A stretch of 41,595 nt of DNA, taken from IMG/VR virus record IMGVR_UViG_3300045970_001354, positions 1 through 41,595 of that record, one strand, 5' to 3'. The number at the start of each line of letters is the position of its first letter. Positions within the stretch are counted from its first letter, which is position 1. This DNA comes from a virus. Both the position numbers and the translations under genes were made by a program. The notes beneath the pieces are model-generated. The model made no database searches, was not told the origin of the DNA, and was given only the letters and a program-made list of their open reading frames with translations. This document shows positions 1 to 41,595 of this stretch, piece by piece.

Positions 1-1368
1 ATGAGCATCGAAAGTCTCAAGCCCGCCTCGATCCGCTCCCGCCTGATTCTCTGGCTGGGTGTCGGTCTGCTTCTGATGTGCGCCGCTTTCCTGTGGTCGG
101 TCTATGACAAAACTCTGCACGAGGCCGCAGAATTGATCGACGGCGATCTGGTCAGTGTGACCCGACTCGGCATGCAAACGGTCGTCGATCAAGCGCAAGG
201 CGCGCCCCTGGCCAGCGACAGCCCCATAGGCAAGCACGATTACGAAACGCCGATGGTCTTGCAAGCGTGGAGTGCCGACGGAGCGTTGATGGTTCACATC
301 GGACCGCCGGCAGGGGGCGTTCCAGCGCCCAAGGCACCCGGATTCGCCGATTTCCGGATCAACGCCAAACAATGGCGCAGCTTTGCGGCATTTCGACCGA
401 AGGAGCAGCTTTGGATTCGCTCCATGGTGGCTGCTGATGCCCGCAATGCACTGGCGACCGATGTTGCCGAAAACATGCTCAAGCCAGGGCTGATTCTGAT
501 CCCGGTGATGCTGCTGTTCGTATGGGGACTGGTCACCTATGCACTGCGGCCGCTGGCAAGATTTTCCAGTGAGATAGAGCGACAGGACATCAACGCCCTG
601 TCGAGCTCCGCGCTCCGGACAGGCGTCACGGAAATGAAGCCGGTGGTGGACGCGATCAATTCTCTGGTTGGCCGCCTGCGCGATGTGAGGGAGCGAGAAC
701 TGTCGTTCGTGGCCGATGCCGCTCATGAGCTTCGCACGCCGTTAGCCGGCATCAAGCTTCATGCCGAAGTTGCGCTGACGGAATCCGATCCTGAACGCTT
801 GCGTGCGGCACTGGTGCATATCGAGATGGGCAGCAAACACGCGGCCGACCTGGTCAATCAACTGCTTGGCCTGGCAAAATTCGACGCGGTCCAGCAACTT
901 GATTTCAAACCATTGGCGGTGGCCGATGTCGTGCGCCGCGTATTCTCGACCCTTCTGCCGCTGGCCGACGACCGTGGTGTGAATCTGGTCGCCGACGGAA
1001 ATATCGAGCTTTCCGCAAGCGGCGACGAGAGCGCTCTGGAAATCATGTTGCGCAATCTGGTGGCGAATGCGATCAATCATTCACCCGTTGGCGGCCGCGT
1101 GACGGTAACGGTAGCGCAGCAAGATAATCGCAACGACCAGCTTATTCTGTCCGTCGCGGACGAAGGCTGCGGCATCGACGAAGCGGATCGCACAAGAATC
1201 TTTGAGCGTTTCTCGCGCTTGCCGGGAACCCAAACGCCGGGTTCCGGACTCGGTCTGGCCATCGTTAGTCGCATCGTCGGCCTGCACGAAGGGACGATTC
1301 GCGTGGAGAGCAGCGTAAACGGCGGCGCGCTTTTTATTGTGACATTACGAGTGGTTCAGTCTTCATAA
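1..1368 (+). CDS. Two-component sensor histidine kinase (QseC/TctE-like)
   Basis: Inner-membrane sensor kinase of 455 residues, host gene outside the prophage. Membrane segments lie near residues 15-34 and 162-182 and enclose a periplasmic sensor region of about 125 residues. A HAMP-like linker follows. The H-box has phospho-acceptor His242 in DAAHELRTPL. The catalytic domain shows the N-box (N356, N359), G1 box DEGCG (387-391) and G2 box GSGLGL (414-419), so it should autophosphorylate and pass phosphate to a response regulator, which would lie upstream outside the window. The signal sensed cannot be told. The gene is intact and ends 25 bp before the putative prophage target duplication, so the phage inserted just downstream without breaking it. 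Confidence 0.93.
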   Translation: MSIESLKPASIRSRLILWLGVGLLLMCAAFLWSVYDKTLHEAAELIDGDLVSVTRLGMQTVVDQAQGAPLASDSPIGKHDYETPMVLQAWSADGALMVHIGPPAGGVPAPKAPGFADFRINAKQWRSFAAFRPKEQLWIRSMVAADARNALATDVAENMLKPGLILIPVMLLFVWGLVTYALRPLARFSSEIERQDINALSSSALRTGVTEMKPVVDAINSLVGRLRDVRERELSFVADAAHELRTPLAGIKLHAEVALTESDPERLRAALVHIEMGSKHAADLVNQLLGLAKFDAVQQLDFKPLAVADVVRRVFSTLLPLADDRGVNLVADGNIELSASGDESALEIMLRNLVANAINHSPVGGRVTVTVAQQDNRNDQLILSVADEGCGIDEADRTRIFERFSRLPGTQTPGSGLGLAIVSRIVGLHEGTIRVESSVNGGALFIVTLRVVQSS

Positions 1369-10715: not shown

Positions 10716-11117
10716 TTAAATCTCCATAAATTTGAGAGTGACTTGCCAATAGTCGTCGGCGTCGTAGGTCGGGAAGCCCCGCACCGGCTTGGACTCGATT
10801 GGCGAGTTTTCCGAATGGCGAAACACCACGTTATAAGTGCGCGCGTCATCAAGCGTGAGCAAGAACTGCTGGCCAGGCGTATTCGACCAGGCGTGCAGTG
10901 TGTCGACTGTCGAGCGCGGGTGCCAGGCCATGCCGGCGTCGGGTGCGCTTAACGTGATCGGCCGTCCCGCCTGCCGGGTCGCGGTATCGATAATTAACGC
11001 GCCGGTCAGGCTGTACGCCGAGGTGGCCGTCACCGCCGACCAGGCGTGCTCGTCGGTCCACAGCAAGTCATGCGACAGCGCGAGATCTTGCGCTAGCGTT
11101 AAATGTCTCAAAATCAT
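10716..11117 (-). CDS. Distal-tail-type protein following the tape measure
   Basis: 133 residues; ATGA overlap with the tape-measure stop, so translationally coupled. The sequence (LSHDLLWTDEHAWSAVTATS; GALIIDTATRQAGRPITL; W.VTLKFMEI) is strongly beta and lacks enzyme motifs. Genes in this slot in long-tailed phages encode distal tail or tail-completion proteins. Function is inferred from position and composition. Confidence 0.75.
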   Translation of the reverse strand: MILRHLTLAQDLALSHDLLWTDEHAWSAVTATSAYSLTGALIIDTATRQAGRPITLSAPDAGMAWHPRSTVDTLHAWSNTPGQQFLLTLDDARTYNVVFRHSENSPIESKPVRGFPTYDADDYWQVTLKFMEI

Positions 11118-14100
11118 GCCGCAACTCCTTTGGCACGTTGCAGCAAGGCCAGCAGCGGTTCGACGTTGACCGCGTCGACCGTGACCGGGATATTGGTTCC
11201 CCGGTTATCGGTAAAGTTGACCTGCACGATCTTCGAAGGCGTTTGACTGGCGGGCGCTGCGAGGCCTGGCAGGGTGACGGTGAAGGTCTTGGCTGCGCTC
11301 ACCTGCTGCAGCAGAAGATCGGACAGAGACGGCTGCCCCGACTGATTGCGCGCATCCGACAAGGCCTTGGCGTCCGCCAGTTGCTGCGCCTTATAGTCCG
11401 CCGCCGCTTTGGCATCCGACAAGGCCTTGGCGTCCGCCAGTTGCTGCGCCTTATAGTCCGCCGCCGCTTTGGCATCCGCTGCCGCCTTATCCGCCGCAGC
11501 GTGCGCCTGGCGCGCTTCCTCGGCCTTCCTGGCGACGATCTTGGCCTTCTCCATCTCTTCCAGTTGCTTCAGGTCGGCCAGCGCCTGGCGCTGCGCTTGC
11601 TTGGCATCATTCAGAGACTCTTCAAGCCCGCCCGTGTCCACGCCGGCCGCTTTCGCGGTGGCGATCGCAATCTTGATCTTCACTTCCAGCAACTGGTATT
11701 CCAGTTGCAGATCGCGCTTGCGCGAATCGTAGCGAGACGCCGCCGCCGCTTCCTCGTTGCCGGTGGCCGTCAGCAGCTCTTCATGGATGCCACGCGCACT
11801 GTTGACAAAGGCGTGTGCGGCATCCATCGCGGCTTGCGCAACGCTCTCGGCATCGGCCCTGATAGCGCGCATCGCTTTGTCGACTTCTCCGCTCGCACTC
11901 CCCAGGAACTGCATCTGGATCGTGGCCTGCCCCACCTGCGACGCCGTCATGCCCATGGCCCCGTTGATCGCATCCTTGGACGCCTGGTATGAAGCGCTCA
12001 GCGCATCGGCCTGGTCCTTGGCTGCTTTGGTCGAGTCCGCGATCCGCTTAACCGCCTCATCGACTTTGACAAACGCATCAATCGGGCTTTTTCCCCACGT
12101 GTCGAACAACTGCTGCGCCTCGCCCCTGGCGGCCGCCATCGATGCACCGGCTTCTTCCAGCCGCTTTTGCACATACTCGACCGAAATACCCAAGGCTTCA
12201 AATCTTTGACCGGTATCATCCAGCAGCCAGCCCTGGGCGTCGTACTTCGCGGCTTTTAATACCGAATCAGTTTTCTTGGCCGCGTCCGTCAGCTTGTTTT
12301 GGGCGTCGACCTCTTGCTGTGTGATCGCGACTTGCTCTTCGGCCGTGGCCACGCTCGATTGCTGTTCGGCAACCTGCTGCTTGATCTTATCGACCACCAG
12401 TTGCTTGGCGTCGGCTTCATCCTTGGCGGCTTTGGCGGCGGCAATCAGCGCCGGGTTGTTCGGGTCGAGCGCGAGGGCTTTCTCCGCGTTTAACTGGCGC
12501 TGCTTGGCGACCAATTCATTCATCGCCGCCAGCTCTTCATCGCGCAACAGTCGCGCCAGGATTTCCTGCTGCTTTTTTAGCTCCAGTTCGGCCTTGGCGG
12601 CATCGAGCTGGGCTTTGGACAGGGCGGTGCCTTGTTTCTTATCGTTGATTTCCGCTGCGGTGACGGCCGCTTGCGCGGTCTTGACGGCCAGGGTCGCCTT
12701 GGTTACATCCAACTCGGCGGTGGAGACTTTGGCGCCTTCCTCGGCCAAGGCGACGGCTTGATCGGACAGAGCCTTGACCGCGTCCTTGGCGCCGCTGGAC
12801 TTTTCTTTGATCGAATCCAGCGCTTGCATCATCTGCGCGCCGCTGATCGTGCCTGCCGCGCCCAGCGCCTGCACCTTCTGGCGCAGCTCGTCGAAGTCGG
12901 TCTTGGTCTTGGCGGTCTTCACTTGCTTGTCGAATAGCTCGTCAAACTTCTGCGATACGAGCGACAGGCCGGACCGAAACTCATCCGCGCTGATTCGGCC
13001 CTTATTGAAGTTTTCTTGCAACGCCTCGCCAAATCCTTTCAGTCCAGGCAGGCTCTTGTCGAAGTCCAGCGCCAACTTGAAGGCGTCGTATATCTTCTGA
13101 GCCGACTGGGTTCCAGATTGTGCAATAGTGTTAAACGCAGAGAGTGCGGTCGACCCGGCCTGGTCGATGCCGGTCTTTATTTCTTCAGCCGTGATGTTCA
13201 ATAGTTTGAACGCCTGGGCCACTTCGTCGCCCTTGTTCTTCAACACCTCCAGGCTTTTATTTAACGTATCAAGCTGCTTTTGCGTCAACCCTCCTTCGTT
13301 GCCAAGCTTCTTGACTTCCGCAGTCGCCGCCGCTAAAGCCTTGGCAAATTCTTCGCCCTTCAAGCCGTCTGTTTGTTTTTTTGCCAGACTCGTTATCACC
13401 GCGTCCGCATCGGCATAAGCCTTGTTGGCCTTCGTCTGTGCCGCGATCGCTTTTGTAGCAGCGTCTTCGGCAGCCGGTGCAATTGCCTTTAGTGACTGCG
13501 CATATTTCGCAACTGCCGTATCGCCTTTGGCGAATGCTTCAAACGTCTTTTTGCCACCTTCGATCGCGGCATCCGACTGCTCGCGCAACCCGACAGCGAC
13601 TTCCTTTAGTGACTTGCTGAGAGAAGGAAAAAGAAAGGTCAGCTTGGACCATCCCTCGACGACCAACGCCGCAACACCGAGAATTACGCCGCCGACAATT
13701 TCAAACGTCGCACCCAAAATCGAGAAGCCGTCGCGTACACCGGCGATGATCAGGCCCAGCGTTTCAAATACCGTCTTTAGCAGATTGCCGCCATTGACAG
13801 CACCGAGAATCGCTGACCACCCCGCATAAGCTGCGGTTGCAAGATCATAGAACGCCACGCCGACAGCCACGAGCTGGTCAAACACGCCTTTGATGGCCGG
13901 CATGGCTTCGGCATATGCGTTAATCACCGCGACGGCGAAAACGACAACTGCGTCTACAATCGCTTTCAAAACAGGCAAGATGCCGCGCAAGCTCTCGCCA
14001 GCGAATGCCTGGTTAAATTTGTTCTTGATGTTTTCGAGTGCCGGCAGAATGGGCGCCAGCGCCTTGATGATGACCGCGCCGATCTCACCGATGAACGAAA

Positions 14101-15094
14101 AGCCGTCCCGTATCGCATCGCCAAATGCTTTCGCAGCCTGCCCGCTGGCATCAAAACCTTTAACGCTCTTTTGGAGATAGCCAAGGAAGTTGGAAACCGC
14201 GACCACCACCGCGTTATAGGCTGGCAGCAGCTTCTCACCGATCGCCAGGCTGGCTTCCGCCTGCAATCGAGACAAAGATGAAAGCTTCTTGCCGGTCGTC
14301 TCCAGTGACGCTTCGTATGCGCCGGAAAAAGCGGCACTCTTGTTTAACGTCTCGTTATAGAGCGCCTGCTGCTTTTCTTGCGTGGTGAGTGCGCCGACAG
14401 ATTTTTTTGCCTCCGTTGCGAACTTCTCTTGCGCGACTGTTTGGTCAACGATGATGCCAACGAAGCGCAAGCCCTCAACGTCGAGCTGCTGGATATTGGT
14501 AATCAGGCGGCTCAGCGTTTGAGATGAATTTTCGCCGGTCACTACCGCTAAGTCTTGCGCGGCCCGAGCCAACTTTGCGACGCCTGACGCGCCGCCAGCA
14601 GCGGTTGGTTCCAACTTGAGACCCGCCTGGATAAATTGCAGCACCGCGTTTTGCGCGGCCTCGGTCGTGATGCCTAGGTTCTTGGTTTCCTCGACATATC
14701 CGTTGAGCTGGCCTTGCGTGTACCCTGCATTCTTGCCGACCACGCCCAATGTCACACCCAGCGTCTCAACCCGCGCGGCCGTGTCGGCCGCATCCTTCAA
14801 CGACGACACCGCAGCAAACGCCACCAGGGCCACTACCGCTTGCTTTACTAAGCCAACCAGCTTGTCCACGCCGGTGCCAACCGGATCAAGCGCGGCGCTA
14901 AGCGTCTTCGACGAATCAGATGCCGACTTCGCGCCGTCCGACAGGTTCTTTAATCCGCTGCCGGCGCCACCCGCCTTGACACCGACAGCGTTGGCCTGCT
15001 GCCCGGTGCTAACCAGCTCCGCCGCCAATTGGGAGACGTTCTGTATCCCCTCTACCAGGGCGCGAATGCGGATGTCGAAGCTTGCGCCTGTCAT
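11114..15094 (-). CDS. Tail tape measure protein
   Basis: 1326 residues, the longest gene of the window, directly after the chaperone G/GT pair as in nearly all long-tailed phages. It sets tail length and is threaded through the tail tube. The sequence alternates Ala/Lys/Glu/Gln-rich coiled coil with hydrophobic stretches (about 320-490, several VVVFAVAVINAY-like segments) expected of tape measures. The C-terminal part has long Ala-Lys-rich helices with an exact 20-residue duplication (60-bp direct repeat at 11352-11471). Confidence 0.93.
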   Translation of the reverse strand: MTGASFDIRIRALVEGIQNVSQLAAELVSTGQQANAVGVKAGGAGSGLKNLSDGAKSASDSSKTLSAALDPVGTGVDKLVGLVKQAVVALVAFAAVSSLKDAADTAARVETLGVTLGVVGKNAGYTQGQLNGYVEETKNLGITTEAAQNAVLQFIQAGLKLEPTAAGGASGVAKLARAAQDLAVVTGENSSQTLSRLITNIQQLDVEGLRFVGIIVDQTVAQEKFATEAKKSVGALTTQEKQQALYNETLNKSAAFSGAYEASLETTGKKLSSLSRLQAEASLAIGEKLLPAYNAVVVAVSNFLGYLQKSVKGFDASGQAAKAFGDAIRDGFSFIGEIGAVIIKALAPILPALENIKNKFNQAFAGESLRGILPVLKAIVDAVVVFAVAVINAYAEAMPAIKGVFDQLVAVGVAFYDLATAAYAGWSAILGAVNGGNLLKTVFETLGLIIAGVRDGFSILGATFEIVGGVILGVAALVVEGWSKLTFLFPSLSKSLKEVAVGLREQSDAAIEGGKKTFEAFAKGDTAVAKYAQSLKAIAPAAEDAATKAIAAQTKANKAYADADAVITSLAKKQTDGLKGEEFAKALAAATAEVKKLGNEGGLTQKQLDTLNKSLEVLKNKGDEVAQAFKLLNITAEEIKTGIDQAGSTALSAFNTIAQSGTQSAQKIYDAFKLALDFDKSLPGLKGFGEALQENFNKGRISADEFRSGLSLVSQKFDELFDKQVKTAKTKTDFDELRQKVQALGAAGTISGAQMMQALDSIKEKSSGAKDAVKALSDQAVALAEEGAKVSTAELDVTKATLAVKTAQAAVTAAEINDKKQGTALSKAQLDAAKAELELKKQQEILARLLRDEELAAMNELVAKQRQLNAEKALALDPNNPALIAAAKAAKDEADAKQLVVDKIKQQVAEQQSSVATAEEQVAITQQEVDAQNKLTDAAKKTDSVLKAAKYDAQGWLLDDTGQRFEALGISVEYVQKRLEEAGASMAAARGEAQQLFDTWGKSPIDAFVKVDEAVKRIADSTKAAKDQADALSASYQASKDAINGAMGMTASQVGQATIQMQFLGSASGEVDKAMRAIRADAESVAQAAMDAAHAFVNSARGIHEELLTATGNEEAAAASRYDSRKRDLQLEYQLLEVKIKIAIATAKAAGVDTGGLEESLNDAKQAQRQALADLKQLEEMEKAKIVARKAEEARQAHAAADKAAADAKAAADYKAQQLADAKALSDAKAAADYKAQQLADAKALSDARNQSGQPSLSDLLLQQVSAAKTFTVTLPGLAAPASQTPSKIVQVNFTDNRGTNIPVTVDAVNVEPLLALLQRAKGVAA
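11352..11471 (-). repeat. Perfect 60-bp tandem duplication in the tape measure gene
   Basis: 11352-11411 and 11412-11471 are identical; a third copy begins at 11472 but diverges after 7 bases. It encodes two copies of a 20-residue unit containing DYKAQQLADAKALS. Perfect identity at DNA level means the duplication is recent. It adds about 20 helical residues, which by the ruler rule would lengthen the tail by roughly 3 nm. Confidence 0.92.
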
Positions 15095-15696
15095 TTAGTC
15101 CTCACACCTTTTCAGAATGCCCTCGATCGTTTCACTATCGCCACGCGCCCCCAGCATCACTGCCGACATCAACTCGGCAAACTCGCGGCTGCGCGCCTTG
15201 TCGACCGCCTTGATGAATGCCAGGAACGTGGACCATTCGTAATTCATCACGGCGTCGTATGAATGGCCGTTTTGAATCAGATTGTTGATTGAGTCTGCCC
15301 AGGTGCTTGTGCTTGCAGCTTTGCGACCAGTTCTTGCATCCCTCCGGTCAGCAGTGGCAGAACTCTTTGGATAAAAAAATCGAGGTTGACCTCCAGCAGA
15401 TCGATGAACAGCGCAATCGCATCGTCCAGTTCCAGCGCATCGACCCACTTGCGCGGTTTGCCGGACAGGGCACTCAGTAGGTTCAGGGCGTCGTCCCCGT
15501 GCGACAGGAACAAACTGGAAATGATCTCGGCAGACACATCCTTTTGCATCAGTAAGTGCGACAGAGGCTGCACGGCAGCTAGGACGGCCGGCAGCGCGCC
15601 GACCTTGATCTGGGCGATCACAATAACTTCGCCCGCGAGCGTGGTGGTCTTGCGGGTCGGGATGACGGCGTCGAGGTCGCTCTTGGGCTGGTTCAT
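15095..15696 (-). CDS. Tail assembly chaperone GT (made by -1 frameshift)
   Basis: The 0-frame gene (15277-15696) codes for a 139-residue G-like protein. A second frame, -1 relative to it, stays open from inside the gene to 15095, where TAA touches the tape-measure ATG. It reads WADSINNLIQNGHSYDAVMN and on to GILKRCED, with no start or ribosome site of its own. This is the classical G/GT layout (lambda G-T), where a small share of ribosomes slips back one base. The best slip site is GCAAAG at 15319-15324; slipping there on AAG gives a 200-residue fusion. GT would bind tape measure and tail-tube subunits. Confidence 0.75.
15277..15696 (-). CDS. Tail assembly chaperone G
   Basis: 139 residues, ATG preceded by GGAG. 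Mostly helical, with an N-terminal segment (KTTTLAGEVIVIAQIKVGAL) and a middle LELDDAIALFIDLLEVNLDF region. The start upstream at 15852 was rejected because the extension has no coding character and runs across the promoter-like element at 15792-15812. G-type chaperones coat the tape measure during tail assembly. Placement between tail tube and tape measure and the frameshift extension support the call rather than any motif. Confidence 0.75.
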   Translation of the reverse strand: MNQPKSDLDAVIPTRKTTTLAGEVIVIAQIKVGALPAVLAAVQPLSHLLMQKDVSAEIISSLFLSHGDDALNLLSALSGKPRKWVDALELDDAIALFIDLLEVNLDFFIQRVLPLLTGGMQELVAKLQAQAPGQTQSTI

Positions 15697-15778
15697 TGGC
15701 TCTCCTAATGGGCTACGTATTGGACTAATCACTGGAATAAGTCGTGCTACTGGTGAGACTCCAGTGTAAGGAGCGCGG

Positions 15779-15878: not shown

Positions 15879-16142
15879 TTACGCAGCGGCTTGTGTGAAA
15901 TCGACGTAGTACTTCTCGCCGACATTGAATTGGCCGAACAGTGCCGGGTTGGAGATGTTGATGGACAGGTCCGCGCCAGGGGAGAACTTGGCATAGGTGT
16001 TGTCCTCGTCGCTGCCGTCGTCCGGGTACTTGGACGCCGCGACAGCATGCATTTTCAGAGTCTCTTGCGACTTCGTGCCATCCGGTCCGTAAAAGTGCTC
16101 ATGGACGAAGCTAACCTGCATCTTTGCTCTCATCTTGCTCAT
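15879..16142 (-). CDS. Conserved small tail-region protein
   Basis: 87 residues; ATG preceded by AAGGAA. The sequence (MQVSFVHEHFYGPDGTKSQE; SDEDNTYAKFSPGADLSINI; NPALFGQFNVGEKYYVDFT) resembles a small conserved protein found beside the tail-tube gene in Mu-like siphophage genomes; the function of that family is not known to me. It is the last gene before late-promoter-like copy 1. It is separated from the tail-tube gene by a strong stem-loop. Confidence 0.8.
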   Translation of the reverse strand: MSKMRAKMQVSFVHEHFYGPDGTKSQETLKMHAVAASKYPDDGSDEDNTYAKFSPGADLSINISNPALFGQFNVGEKYYVDFTQAAA

Positions 16143-16226: not shown

Positions 16227-16979
16227 TTACGCGCCGAGTTGCAGGATGCGCCCGAACTGACCCAGTTCTGCGTCTGCCGGACGCAGCGTGTCAATCAACA
16301 CGTCGGCGCTGATCACCCCTTCCGAAAACTTCGAATTGATCAGCGACAGCTCCTTGAGCGGCTCGGTGTTGAGCTTATACAACTCGACTATGATCGGCGC
16401 GCCGCCTTCGGCCAGGTTGATGCCCTCGTAACGGATGAAAATATCTTCCGGCACGCTGGAAAATACCGACACGCTGTCCAGGGCGGCATGGGTATACGCG
16501 ACCTTCAATGGCTGCGTCACGCCGGCCACGTCGAGCAGCGTGATCGCGCCGTAGGTTGCGTCGACCTCGTATTTGGCCGGATCGAGCGTGACTGGCGTCG
16601 AGGCCGAGTCCGTGATGACAACCGTCGATACCTTCATGTATTTCAGGGACACCCGGTCGCCCGCGACCAATGCAAGCGGCAGAACTTCAGCCGTAATTGA
16701 TCCGGACGCGATCGCGTTGGCCGTGCCGTACAACTCCATCGCCAGGTTTTCGCGGCTCAACTCCATCAGCGTGAAATCGAACGTCGCCTCCTTGCCGTTG
16801 ACGATCTTCTTGGCAGTCGAGCGTTGGCCGGTATACGACTCCTGATGCTTCAGGACACTCGATTTAAGAGCCAACTTGGCATCGCTGACATCGCCGAACC
16901 AGCGCAAGGCCCCAGGCAGGCCGGTCACGCCGCGCTTGGCGCAATACAGTTTGCCCTGGCCGTAGAAATAATTACTCAT
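16227..16979 (-). CDS. Major tail tube protein
   Basis: 250 residues. I chose the ATG at 16977-16979 (MSNYFYGQGKLY) because TAGGAGC precedes it; the upstream extension lies in the intergenic gap and next gene. The protein is beta-rich with the tail-tube pattern G-x-L-R-W-F-G-D-V...LKH.ESYTGQ...K.VNGKEATFDFTLME..REN, followed by SL.LVAGD and V.V.T-type strands. Its position before the chaperone and tape measure agrees. It polymerises into the hollow tail. No sheath gene accompanies it, which points to a non-contractile tail. Confidence 0.88.
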   Translation of the reverse strand: MSNYFYGQGKLYCAKRGVTGLPGALRWFGDVSDAKLALKSSVLKHQESYTGQRSTAKKIVNGKEATFDFTLMELSRENLAMELYGTANAIASGSITAEVLPLALVAGDRVSLKYMKVSTVVITDSASTPVTLDPAKYEVDATYGAITLLDVAGVTQPLKVAYTHAALDSVSVFSSVPEDIFIRYEGINLAEGGAPIIVELYKLNTEPLKELSLINSKFSEGVISADVLIDTLRPADAELGQFGRILQLGA

Positions 16980-17022
16980 GTTTGCTCCTAGAAATTTAAC
17001 GGTGGATAGTTGCCGACGCGTG

Positions 17023-17202
17023 TTACGCGGCGGATCGTGCGGTTTTGGATTCGGCCAGTTTGCTCGGCCCGCCGATGCCGTTCGATTCCAGCCAAGCCGC
17101 ATCCGGAGCCGGTACCGCGATCGTGTCGCCCGCCGCGTGCTTGACGCCTTGATGCGTGTGCGGCTTGGTGAGCTTGACCTTGATCAAATTGCTGTGCGCC
17201 AT
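17023..17202 (-). CDS. Small conserved phage protein (DUF7210-like)
   Basis: 59 residues starting MAHSNLIKVKLTKPHTHQG with TTGAGG upstream. The pattern V-x-L-x-K-P-H-T-H-x-G-V-x-H-x-x-G-D-T-I is a short conserved phage family seen next to tail-completion genes; the family name is from memory. Residues ALAW-type AAWLESNG close the domain. No function known. Confidence 0.75.
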   Translation of the reverse strand: MAHSNLIKVKLTKPHTHQGVKHAAGDTIAVPAPDAAWLESNGIGGPSKLAESKTARSAA

Positions 17203-23041: not shown

Positions 23042-24632
23042 CTGCCTCTTGCTGCGCGCTCAACATGCCGACCAGGCGCGCGACGAATAGGCGGTAGCCC
23101 AGACCATCGGCCAACGCGGCCGGATCCATCTCGGGGAACGCCTCGGCCAGCATGCCCAGCGCCTCGGTGTCGCTCGTTGCACTCGCCAGCCGGGTGCCCA
23201 GGTCGCCCAGCATTTGCGCGCTTTGCGCTTGCAACGTCGCCGCCGGCAGCGCGTCGACCGCGCTATCGATGGCAGTTTGGTCCGGGTAGCTGTGGGCCTG
23301 GCTTAACGCCACCAACTGCGTCATCAATCCCGAGAGACCTGGAACCGGCTCCGGCGGCGGCGTTGCCGTAGGTGCTTTCGACATCTGCACCAAGAGCGGT
23401 TCGTCTCCGACCGGCACCGGAATACCCAGCTTCTTTTGCACCCAAGACACCGGCACTGGTGTGCCGATGTTGACCAGGGCCGGCAGTGCGGTCGAGTACG
23501 CTCCGAAGTCGGCCAGCTCGCGCACGTCGAACACCAGGCGCGGAATGCGCCAAGCGGCGGCGATGACGCCGCGATTCAACGCCAGTAACGGATAGAGCAG
23601 ATCACGCGTGACCGTCGCCGCCACCTGGCGGGCGTCGGACGCCAGCAGATCGTGGCGCACTTCGTTGTGCACCTTGCCCAGCGCGTTGGTCGATGACTTG
23701 CCATCGGCCTGGCTGGTCAATGTGGCGCCGAGGATCGCTTTAGAAATCGACTTCTCAGCCCAATCGACCATCGCCTGGTGCGGATTATTGGTGCCTTGCG
23801 TGATTGTCGGGAACTCGATCTTCATGCCTTCCGGGATGATGCCTGCGGCCGAATGGCCAAGTTCGGTCACCGCGCGCAACAGCGTCGCCTTTTCGTCGGC
23901 GCCGACGCCGGACGGATAGGTGCCCAGGCGCATCGGGATGCCGTATACTTCCAGCAGTTCCGCAAGATCCCGGATCGCGTAGTTCTTGAACAGGTATGGC
24001 CATGCCAGCACGCGATGAATGCCGCAGCGAGCGATATAGCCGCTCTTCGCCTTATGGACATGACGCACCCAGCCGAACGGCTGCAGCACGGCGCCTCCTG
24101 CGCTGTAGTCGCGCAGCCGGATATCGTTTTGATCGTCGTAATTGATCATGAACCACGATGCCGGGCGCGGCGTCAGCGCTTTCGGCAACCATTGCGACTC
24201 GGCCAATTGCCACTCGATTTCAACGTTGCTGTAGCCATAACCAACCGCATCCATCAGGCCGAGCATGAAATCCTCGAAGCCGGGCAAATCGGTGAGTATC
24301 TCGGTCAAGTAGTCGGCGTTGGCCTTTTCGTTGGCGTCGGCATTGCGCGGCGGCTCGATCTTCCAGTCTACCGACAGGATCGCATTCTTGCGCTTGGCCA
24401 TCTCGGCGAACAGGTGCGCATCCTTTTCTTCCATGTCGGCGAACAGGTCCGCCTGCGCCTGCAGGTGGCCGAGTTCTGCTTCTTCCAGGATACGCGCCAG
24501 CTTGAACGGCGTTAAACCGCGCGAAGGATGGTTTGCGTATTCGCGCCGAAGCGACGACAGCCGCGCGGTTTGCGGTTCCCGTAGAATCTCACTTTGGATT
24601 GGATTGCCGTTGGTGTCGATGATTTGGGCCAT
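23028..24632 (-). CDS. Portal protein, Mu gp29-like (DUF935)
   Basis: 534 residues. Shows the DUF935 pattern: MEEKDAHLFAEMAKRKNAIL near the start, DWKIEPP, then YGYSNVEIEW, PASWFMI, and DLAELLEVYGIPMRLGTYPS. It forms the ring through which DNA is packaged and leaves the head. It lies after the large terminase, separated by two small zinc-finger-like genes, and is coupled to gpF. Confidence 0.95.
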   Translation of the reverse strand: MAQIIDTNGNPIQSEILREPQTARLSSLRREYANHPSRGLTPFKLARILEEAELGHLQAQADLFADMEEKDAHLFAEMAKRKNAILSVDWKIEPPRNADANEKANADYLTEILTDLPGFEDFMLGLMDAVGYGYSNVEIEWQLAESQWLPKALTPRPASWFMINYDDQNDIRLRDYSAGGAVLQPFGWVRHVHKAKSGYIARCGIHRVLAWPYLFKNYAIRDLAELLEVYGIPMRLGTYPSGVGADEKATLLRAVTELGHSAAGIIPEGMKIEFPTITQGTNNPHQAMVDWAEKSISKAILGATLTSQADGKSSTNALGKVHNEVRHDLLASDARQVAATVTRDLLYPLLALNRGVIAAAWRIPRLVFDVRELADFGAYSTALPALVNIGTPVPVSWVQKKLGIPVPVGDEPLLVQMSKAPTATPPPEPVPGLSGLMTQLVALSQAHSYPDQTAIDSAVDALPAATLQAQSAQMLGDLGTRLASATSDTEALGMLAEAFPEMDPAALADGLGYRLFVARLVGMLSAQQEAGGRG

Positions 24633-41148: not shown

Positions 41149-41595
41149 ATGAAATGGGAAAACTTCACGTCCGACCGTGTAGCCGCATTTTCCTGCAAAT
41201 CTGGCAAGCAGCAGAGCATTTTCTGGGACGGAAAAACACCCGGGCTTGGCCTGCGTGTGACGGCTGCTGGTGCCAAGTCCTACATCTTCGAGACAAACCT
41301 ACACGGCAAGACAATGCGCTCGACCATAGGCGATGCGCTCACATGGACAATCGGCAAGGCCCAAGCAGAGGCGACGCGCCTCAAAGCATTGACTGACCAG
41401 GGAATCGACCCGCGCCAGCAAGTGCTTGAACAGCGCACTAAAGCCGAAGTTGCACAAGCAGAAGCTAAACGCCATGACCTGACACTTGGCGTCCGCGTGC
41501 AAATTGAAAGCGTATCTTGGCTTTCGCCTTGCGGTGCAGAATTTGCCTGCGCAACGGTCGCAAGAGAACGTGGAGGATGCGCAAGGAAGATTTGA
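41149..41595 (+). pseudogene. P4-type integrase, N-terminal part, frame departs after residue 114
   Basis: 148 residues to a TGA at the window edge. Residues 1-114 form the DUF4102 arm-DNA-binding domain of P4-like tyrosine integrases (KTPGLGLRVTAAGAKSYIFE; IGDALTWTIGKAQAEATRL; AEAKRHDLTLG). After LTLG the sequence (VRVQIESVSWLSPCGAEFAC) no longer fits; from about 41491 another frame is open instead (KLKAYLGFRLAVQNLPAQRS). So the catalytic R-H-R-Y domain is absent here, by deletion or recombination at about 41491. The element is probably not mobile by this gene. Confidence 0.7.

Follow-up and report, generated by a model that had tools for sequence, protein, structure and literature searches.

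How might the product of a tail assembly chaperone gene be extended into a second, overlapping reading frame, and at which codons would the ribosome change frame? These questions are raised by a locus on the minus strand of a viral DNA of 41,595 nucleotides (IMG/VR virus record IMGVR_UViG_3300045970_001354), which is referred to here in its full length as the window. An earlier note on this DNA had described the locus as a tail chaperone gene with a -1 frameshift, and had placed the shift at a non-canonical slip site. The assignment to a frameshifted tail assembly chaperone is backed by family matches, homologues, synteny and conservation. The slip site is another matter, and the analysis described below leads us to consider it very probable that the locus specifies a canonical, lambda-type G/GT -1 frameshift of the tail assembly chaperone of a Mu-like transposable phage, with slippage at U UUU UUU, as judged from sequence and from analogy to lambda. 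The features on which the argument depends are the following.

16227-17102, minus strand: Ig-like domain-containing major tail protein, encoded upstream of G (phrog_807, E 5.4e-74)
15702-15706, minus strand: AGGAG ribosome site (15706-15702), 5 nt upstream of the G start codon, ATG 15696
15277-15696, minus strand: G, tail assembly chaperone, 139 aa, span including the stop (TGA 15279-15277); phrog_1442, DUF6631 and homologues found by G profile
15388-15394, minus strand: Shine-Dalgarno-like GGAGGTC, of which GGAGG ends 10 nt short of the heptamer; may stimulate the shift from upstream
15373-15379, minus strand: slippery heptamer T TTT TTT (15379-15373), an in-phase and perfect X XXY YYZ at the Phe-Phe pair of G codons 107-108
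15319-15324, minus strand: GCAAAG, in the overlap and in phase; not the slip site
15095-15373, minus strand: T extension, -1 frame after the predicted slip, base 15373 being read twice; TAA 15097-15095; phrog_14432 and T-domain profile
11114-15094, minus strand: tape measure protein, 1326 aa, its ATG directly after the GT stop; assigned by position, length and homology via the relative L027

The G gene, its -1 extension and their neighbours

The layout that had been read from the sequence earlier, in which a G frame is followed by a -1 extension reaching to the start of the tape measure gene, stands as proposed: G runs from 15696 to 15277, and the TAA of the -1 frame abuts the ATG at 15094 (TAAATG). 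From 15712, the -1 frame runs without a stop through its whole overlap with G. The predicted GT fusion is composed of G residues 1-108 and 92 T residues after the two Phe, giving a computed product of 200 aa (21.8 kDa), the length that had been anticipated for it, next to 139 aa (14.9 kDa) for G alone.

G matches the tail assembly chaperone family phrog_1442 (E 5.9e-26) and Pfam DUF6631 (E 3.5e-06). Its predicted fold (mean pLDDT 73) has its best structural match in BFVD to a protein of Stenotrophomonas phage DLP_5 (Foldseek E 3.9e-05), and the weaker matches there include named tail assembly chaperones; a search of the PDB with this fold gave no match at E 0.001, and a sequence search likewise gave nothing convincing. 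Searches of the phage collection with the G of the window, with the relatives L010 and L026 and with the tape measure protein of the window returned no match, nor did a first scan of genome contigs. The T extension matches phrog_14432 (191 positions) with E 4.5e-11, and G residues 23-109 also match this profile weakly (E 0.0043), so that G and T both seem to be covered by it.

The G/GT locus is situated between the gene for the major tail protein, with one 87-aa ORF intervening, and the tape measure gene. The 1326-aa product of the latter has no family match of its own at E 0.001; it resembles (37% over 438 aa, E 1.6e-63) the product of the gene that follows GT in L027, a contig of Undibacterium rivi, which in turn matches phrog_794 (tail length tape measure) with E 1e-10. 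The match of the intervening ORF (15879-16142, minus strand) to phrog_6978, a profile 284 positions long, takes in the final 73 positions of the profile.

The slippery heptamer and its conservation

What the sequence itself establishes is the presence of two frames, the heptamer with its phase and conservation, and the homology of the T domain. Around the heptamer, G reads ...GAG GTC AAC CTC GAT TTT TTT ATC CAA..., and T TTT TTT is the sole in-phase perfect heptamer within G. It lies inside the overlap of G with the -1 frame, 54 nt upstream of the GCAAAG that had earlier been put forward as the slip site, so that the statement that the overlap is without a perfect XXXYYYZ heptamer was wrong; the heptamer may have been missed because 31 G codons still follow it before the stop. 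In the 13 other genes of the window, in-phase XXXYYYZ motifs occur 17 times in 7202 codon positions, none of them of the TTTTTT(T/C) type, which means that ~0.08 in-phase XXXYYYZ motifs would be expected by chance in the 32-codon overlap.

For comparison, 23 distinct loci (the window included) were assembled by searching virus and genome contigs at the protein level, the relatives being ~25-50% identical to the window in protein sequence. These loci were thinned from 38 sources with a G match by leaving out L001, L003, L004 and L005 (the same contigs as L007, L013, L017 and L022), L002 and L008 (one contig, a near copy of L007), L016 (match output the same as that of L015) and 8 of the 29 loci L031-L059 that had been found by a T7-containing DNA pattern. 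Seven of these 8 are contigs already in the set and the other, L049, is new but cut off; the remaining 21 of the 29 are without a G match.

TTTTTT(T/C) is present in all 38 of the G-matching sources, and GAT TTT TT(T/C) in each of the 23 distinct loci (9 with TTTTTTT, 14 with TTTTTTC). GAC and TTC are the preferred codons elsewhere in many of these loci, and the chance of finding GAT TTT in all 23 by local codon use would be 10^-24 if the loci were independent, which as relatives they are not. The invariance of the amino acids at the heptamer is in part a matter of construction, because the peptide EVNLDFF seeded two of the searches; the synonymous choices are not affected by this. In four loci (L015, L017, L021 and L023) a TGA of the -1 frame directly precedes the heptamer, which implies a shift at or after the heptamer and not further upstream. 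From the heptamer to the end of the T domain the -1 frame is open in 23/23 loci. Such openness is weak evidence in the window alone, where a fraction of 0.90 of the synonymous reshuffles keeps the frame open as far as the stop of G, and moderate evidence when the 23 loci are combined: the log10 of the product is -9.2 if the stretch up to the stop of G is considered and -2.4 if only the first 48 nt are. Other perfect in-phase sites occur in the overlap in only two loci, GGGGGGC in L011 and AAAGGGA in L014, located 42 and 36 nt, respectively, after the heptamer codon. The base that follows the heptamer is A in all 9 TTTTTTT loci and G, A or T in the 14 TTTTTTC loci, a pattern that probably reflects ancestry.

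These comparisons also bear on GCAAAG, at which a ribosome would slip with only the A-site tRNA-Lys re-pairing. The hexamer does occupy 15324-15319, as the earlier note had it, within the overlap and in phase, and slippage there predicts VLPLLTGGMQELVAK joined to the T frame (running into AASTST). When the conservation of this site among the relatives was checked, CGCAAAG was found at the equivalent place in the window alone of the 23 loci, whereas a canonical, perfect heptamer common to all of them lies upstream. We regard slippage at GCAAAG as exceedingly improbable and have rejected it as the slip site; the locus offers no evidence for one-tRNA slippage at this hexamer, and the supposed exception is removed.

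A homopolymer of seven T might alternatively invite slippage by RNA polymerase, through which some of the mRNAs would acquire an extra U (or lose two) and then undergo ordinary translation. Frameshifted products do arise by transcriptional slippage in some bacterial systems, according to sections of PMC5009743 and PMC4256274, but the cases described in the sections of PMC4256274 consulted here involve runs of 9 and 11 A, and 14 of the 23 loci have only six T followed by C, with no change in codon phase and the pair still read as Phe-Phe; this route is highly unlikely. The window being an IMG/VR virus record, one might also consider that a homopolymer error in the contig has split one true gene, an explanation with a negligible probability since 23/23 distinct loci, and three named phages besides, have their two frames arranged in the same way around T6(T/C).

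In a lambda-type G/GT frameshift, the extension overlaps G in another frame and lacks a start of its own. A T-domain profile built from 22 relatives, with the window excluded, matched just one of the 815 ORFs of the window, namely the -1 frame (E 1.8e-20), and by this sequence criterion the T extension is genuine coding sequence. In 23/23 loci a conserved W column of the T domain is reached before the stop of G. An independent start for the extension, which the earlier note had named as a finding that would speak against frameshifting, was not detected in the window: ATG, GTG and TTG are absent between the heptamer and the conserved W in 20 of the 23 loci, the window among them, and a start-type codon is present there in L014, L015 and L025. 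The window does contain GTG and ATG at extension residues 43-44 (counting the first Phe as 0), from which T might be translated alone, but the T domain's conserved W and GH both precede these codons, and we attach almost no probability to such an internal start.

Possible stimulators of the shift

A dnaX-type stimulated -1 site combines a Shine-Dalgarno-like element on the 5' side, ~10 nt upstream, with a stem-loop on the 3' side. At the locus described here, GGAGG is a candidate for the upstream element by its distance from the heptamer. Within this candidate, 22/23 loci use GAG over GAA where 13.8 would be expected (P 4.9e-5 if the loci are taken as independent), but in just 6/23 loci does no other position of the scanned stretch pair better with the anti-Shine-Dalgarno sequence. 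In the window, 5 of the 388 positions scanned outscore the upstream GGAGG site. Since stronger anti-Shine-Dalgarno positions exist elsewhere in 17/23 loci, a stimulatory role for GGAGG is suggestive only, and the notion that the contact is a unique feature of the site was dropped. What is suggested is that the shift may be stimulated by pairing of GGAGG, 10 nt upstream, with the anti-Shine-Dalgarno sequence, and the element represents a testable candidate stimulator.

Unlike the dnaX-type site, a stable stem-loop shortly downstream was not encountered here by simple folding. Among the loci such folding revealed no consistent 3' structure (mean z -0.58 at 50 nt, versus -0.22 for control windows), and the values for the region downstream of the heptamer in the window itself are +0.58, +1.9 and -1.33. 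A conserved 3' stem-loop was accordingly rejected within the scope of this folding, which covered pseudoknot-free structures. It is conceivable, though we would sooner doubt than assert it, that the whole family relies on a U-only heptamer with double tRNA-Phe slippage and an upstream GAGG(T) contact with the anti-Shine-Dalgarno sequence, with no 3' structure, and that EVNLDFF has been kept largely because its codons are the signal.

Comparison with known systems and the predicted mechanism

The slippery heptamer of lambda is G GGA AAG, as compared with U UUU UUU in the window, and the likeness drawn here between the two loci is one of layout. As predicted for the window, the G/GT locus of lambda uses a -1 shift that gives low-level GT ahead of the tape measure gene, and G/GT frameshifting is described in the same portion of that source as widely conserved in long-tailed phages (PMC5009743). 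Mu is a transposable phage with the same locus and role, but its shift is -2 and that of the window -1 (PMC5009743 and PMC4378225, in part); the pertinent section of PMC4378225 treats -1 as usual and the -2 of Mu as exceptional. Transposable phage KS10 was reported, in the portion of PMC2628397 that concerns it, to be without such a slippery site.

The D3112-like Pseudomonas phages MP22, MP38 and PaMx73 resemble the window in the -1 direction and in a heptamer placed at a Phe-Phe pair, although theirs, T TTT TTC, ends in C and that of the window in T. In the record for MP22, positions 23556-23562 (TTTTTTC) are annotated as "slippery sequence for -1 translational frameshift", and GGAGGTGA is found upstream of this heptamer, at the place of the Shine-Dalgarno-like element of the window. 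MP38, also with TTTTTTC, has ORF42 and a joined ORF43 (both tail assembly chaperone in the record NC_011611; gpG and gpGT, respectively, in EU272037); for PaMx73, T TTT TTC is given at codons 116-118 of core ORF 35 in the relevant section of PMC4378225. The gene order of MP22 and MP38 is that of the window (major tail protein, G, GT, tape measure), except that their G directly follows the major tail protein whereas the window has the 87-aa ORF in between, and the identity of the T extension between these D3112-like phages and the window is low (29.6%). The tape measure chaperone of Stenotrophomonas phage Summit, an annotated frameshift product, has the same TTTTTTT heptamer as the window; Summit and DLP_5 have larger genomes (~96 kb) and are linked to the window in sequence only through the relative L015.

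From the lambda system we infer that slippage would occur at the locus in the window, and the same analogy guides what might be expected of its efficiency and its role in assembly. The majority of ribosomes would read G through to its stop, and a minority, their P and A sites both occupied by tRNA-Phe on GAT TTT TTT ATC, would slip back by one base on U UUU UUU. Both tRNAs could re-pair with UUU, and reading in the -1 frame would go on with UAU CCA AAG..., yielding GT beside G. The predicted GT junction is ...NLDFF followed by YPK, represented by the tryptic peptide WVDALELDDAIALFIDLLEVNLDFFYPK, with ...NLDFFIQR as its counterpart in G. By analogy, only a minor share of the chaperone subunits coating the tape measure protein would bear the T domain, which might there recruit the tail tube subunit. 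It counts against this site that U_UUU_UUU was far less shift-prone than A_AAA_AAG in the E. coli constructs described in part of PMC5009743; a low efficiency would still fit the G/GT ratio of lambda.

The locus is thus a new example of a well-known frameshift and not an odd exception, and the family-wide U UUU UU(U/C) sites could be used for placing GT annotations in metagenomic Mu-like phages. The genome examined here also carries a Mu-like transposase, a transposition protein, a terminase, a portal and a major head protein. Its left end (1-1368, plus strand) encodes a host-like sensor histidine kinase (HisKA, HATPase_c) and its right end (41149-41595, plus strand) the start of a host-like, integrase-like protein (Arm-DNA-bind_3). 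The presence of host-like DNA at both ends of the record suggests an integrated prophage that was cut out together with its flanks. Near the left end of this prophage, at 1505-2299 on the minus strand, there is a gene for a D12 class N6-adenine DNA methyltransferase.
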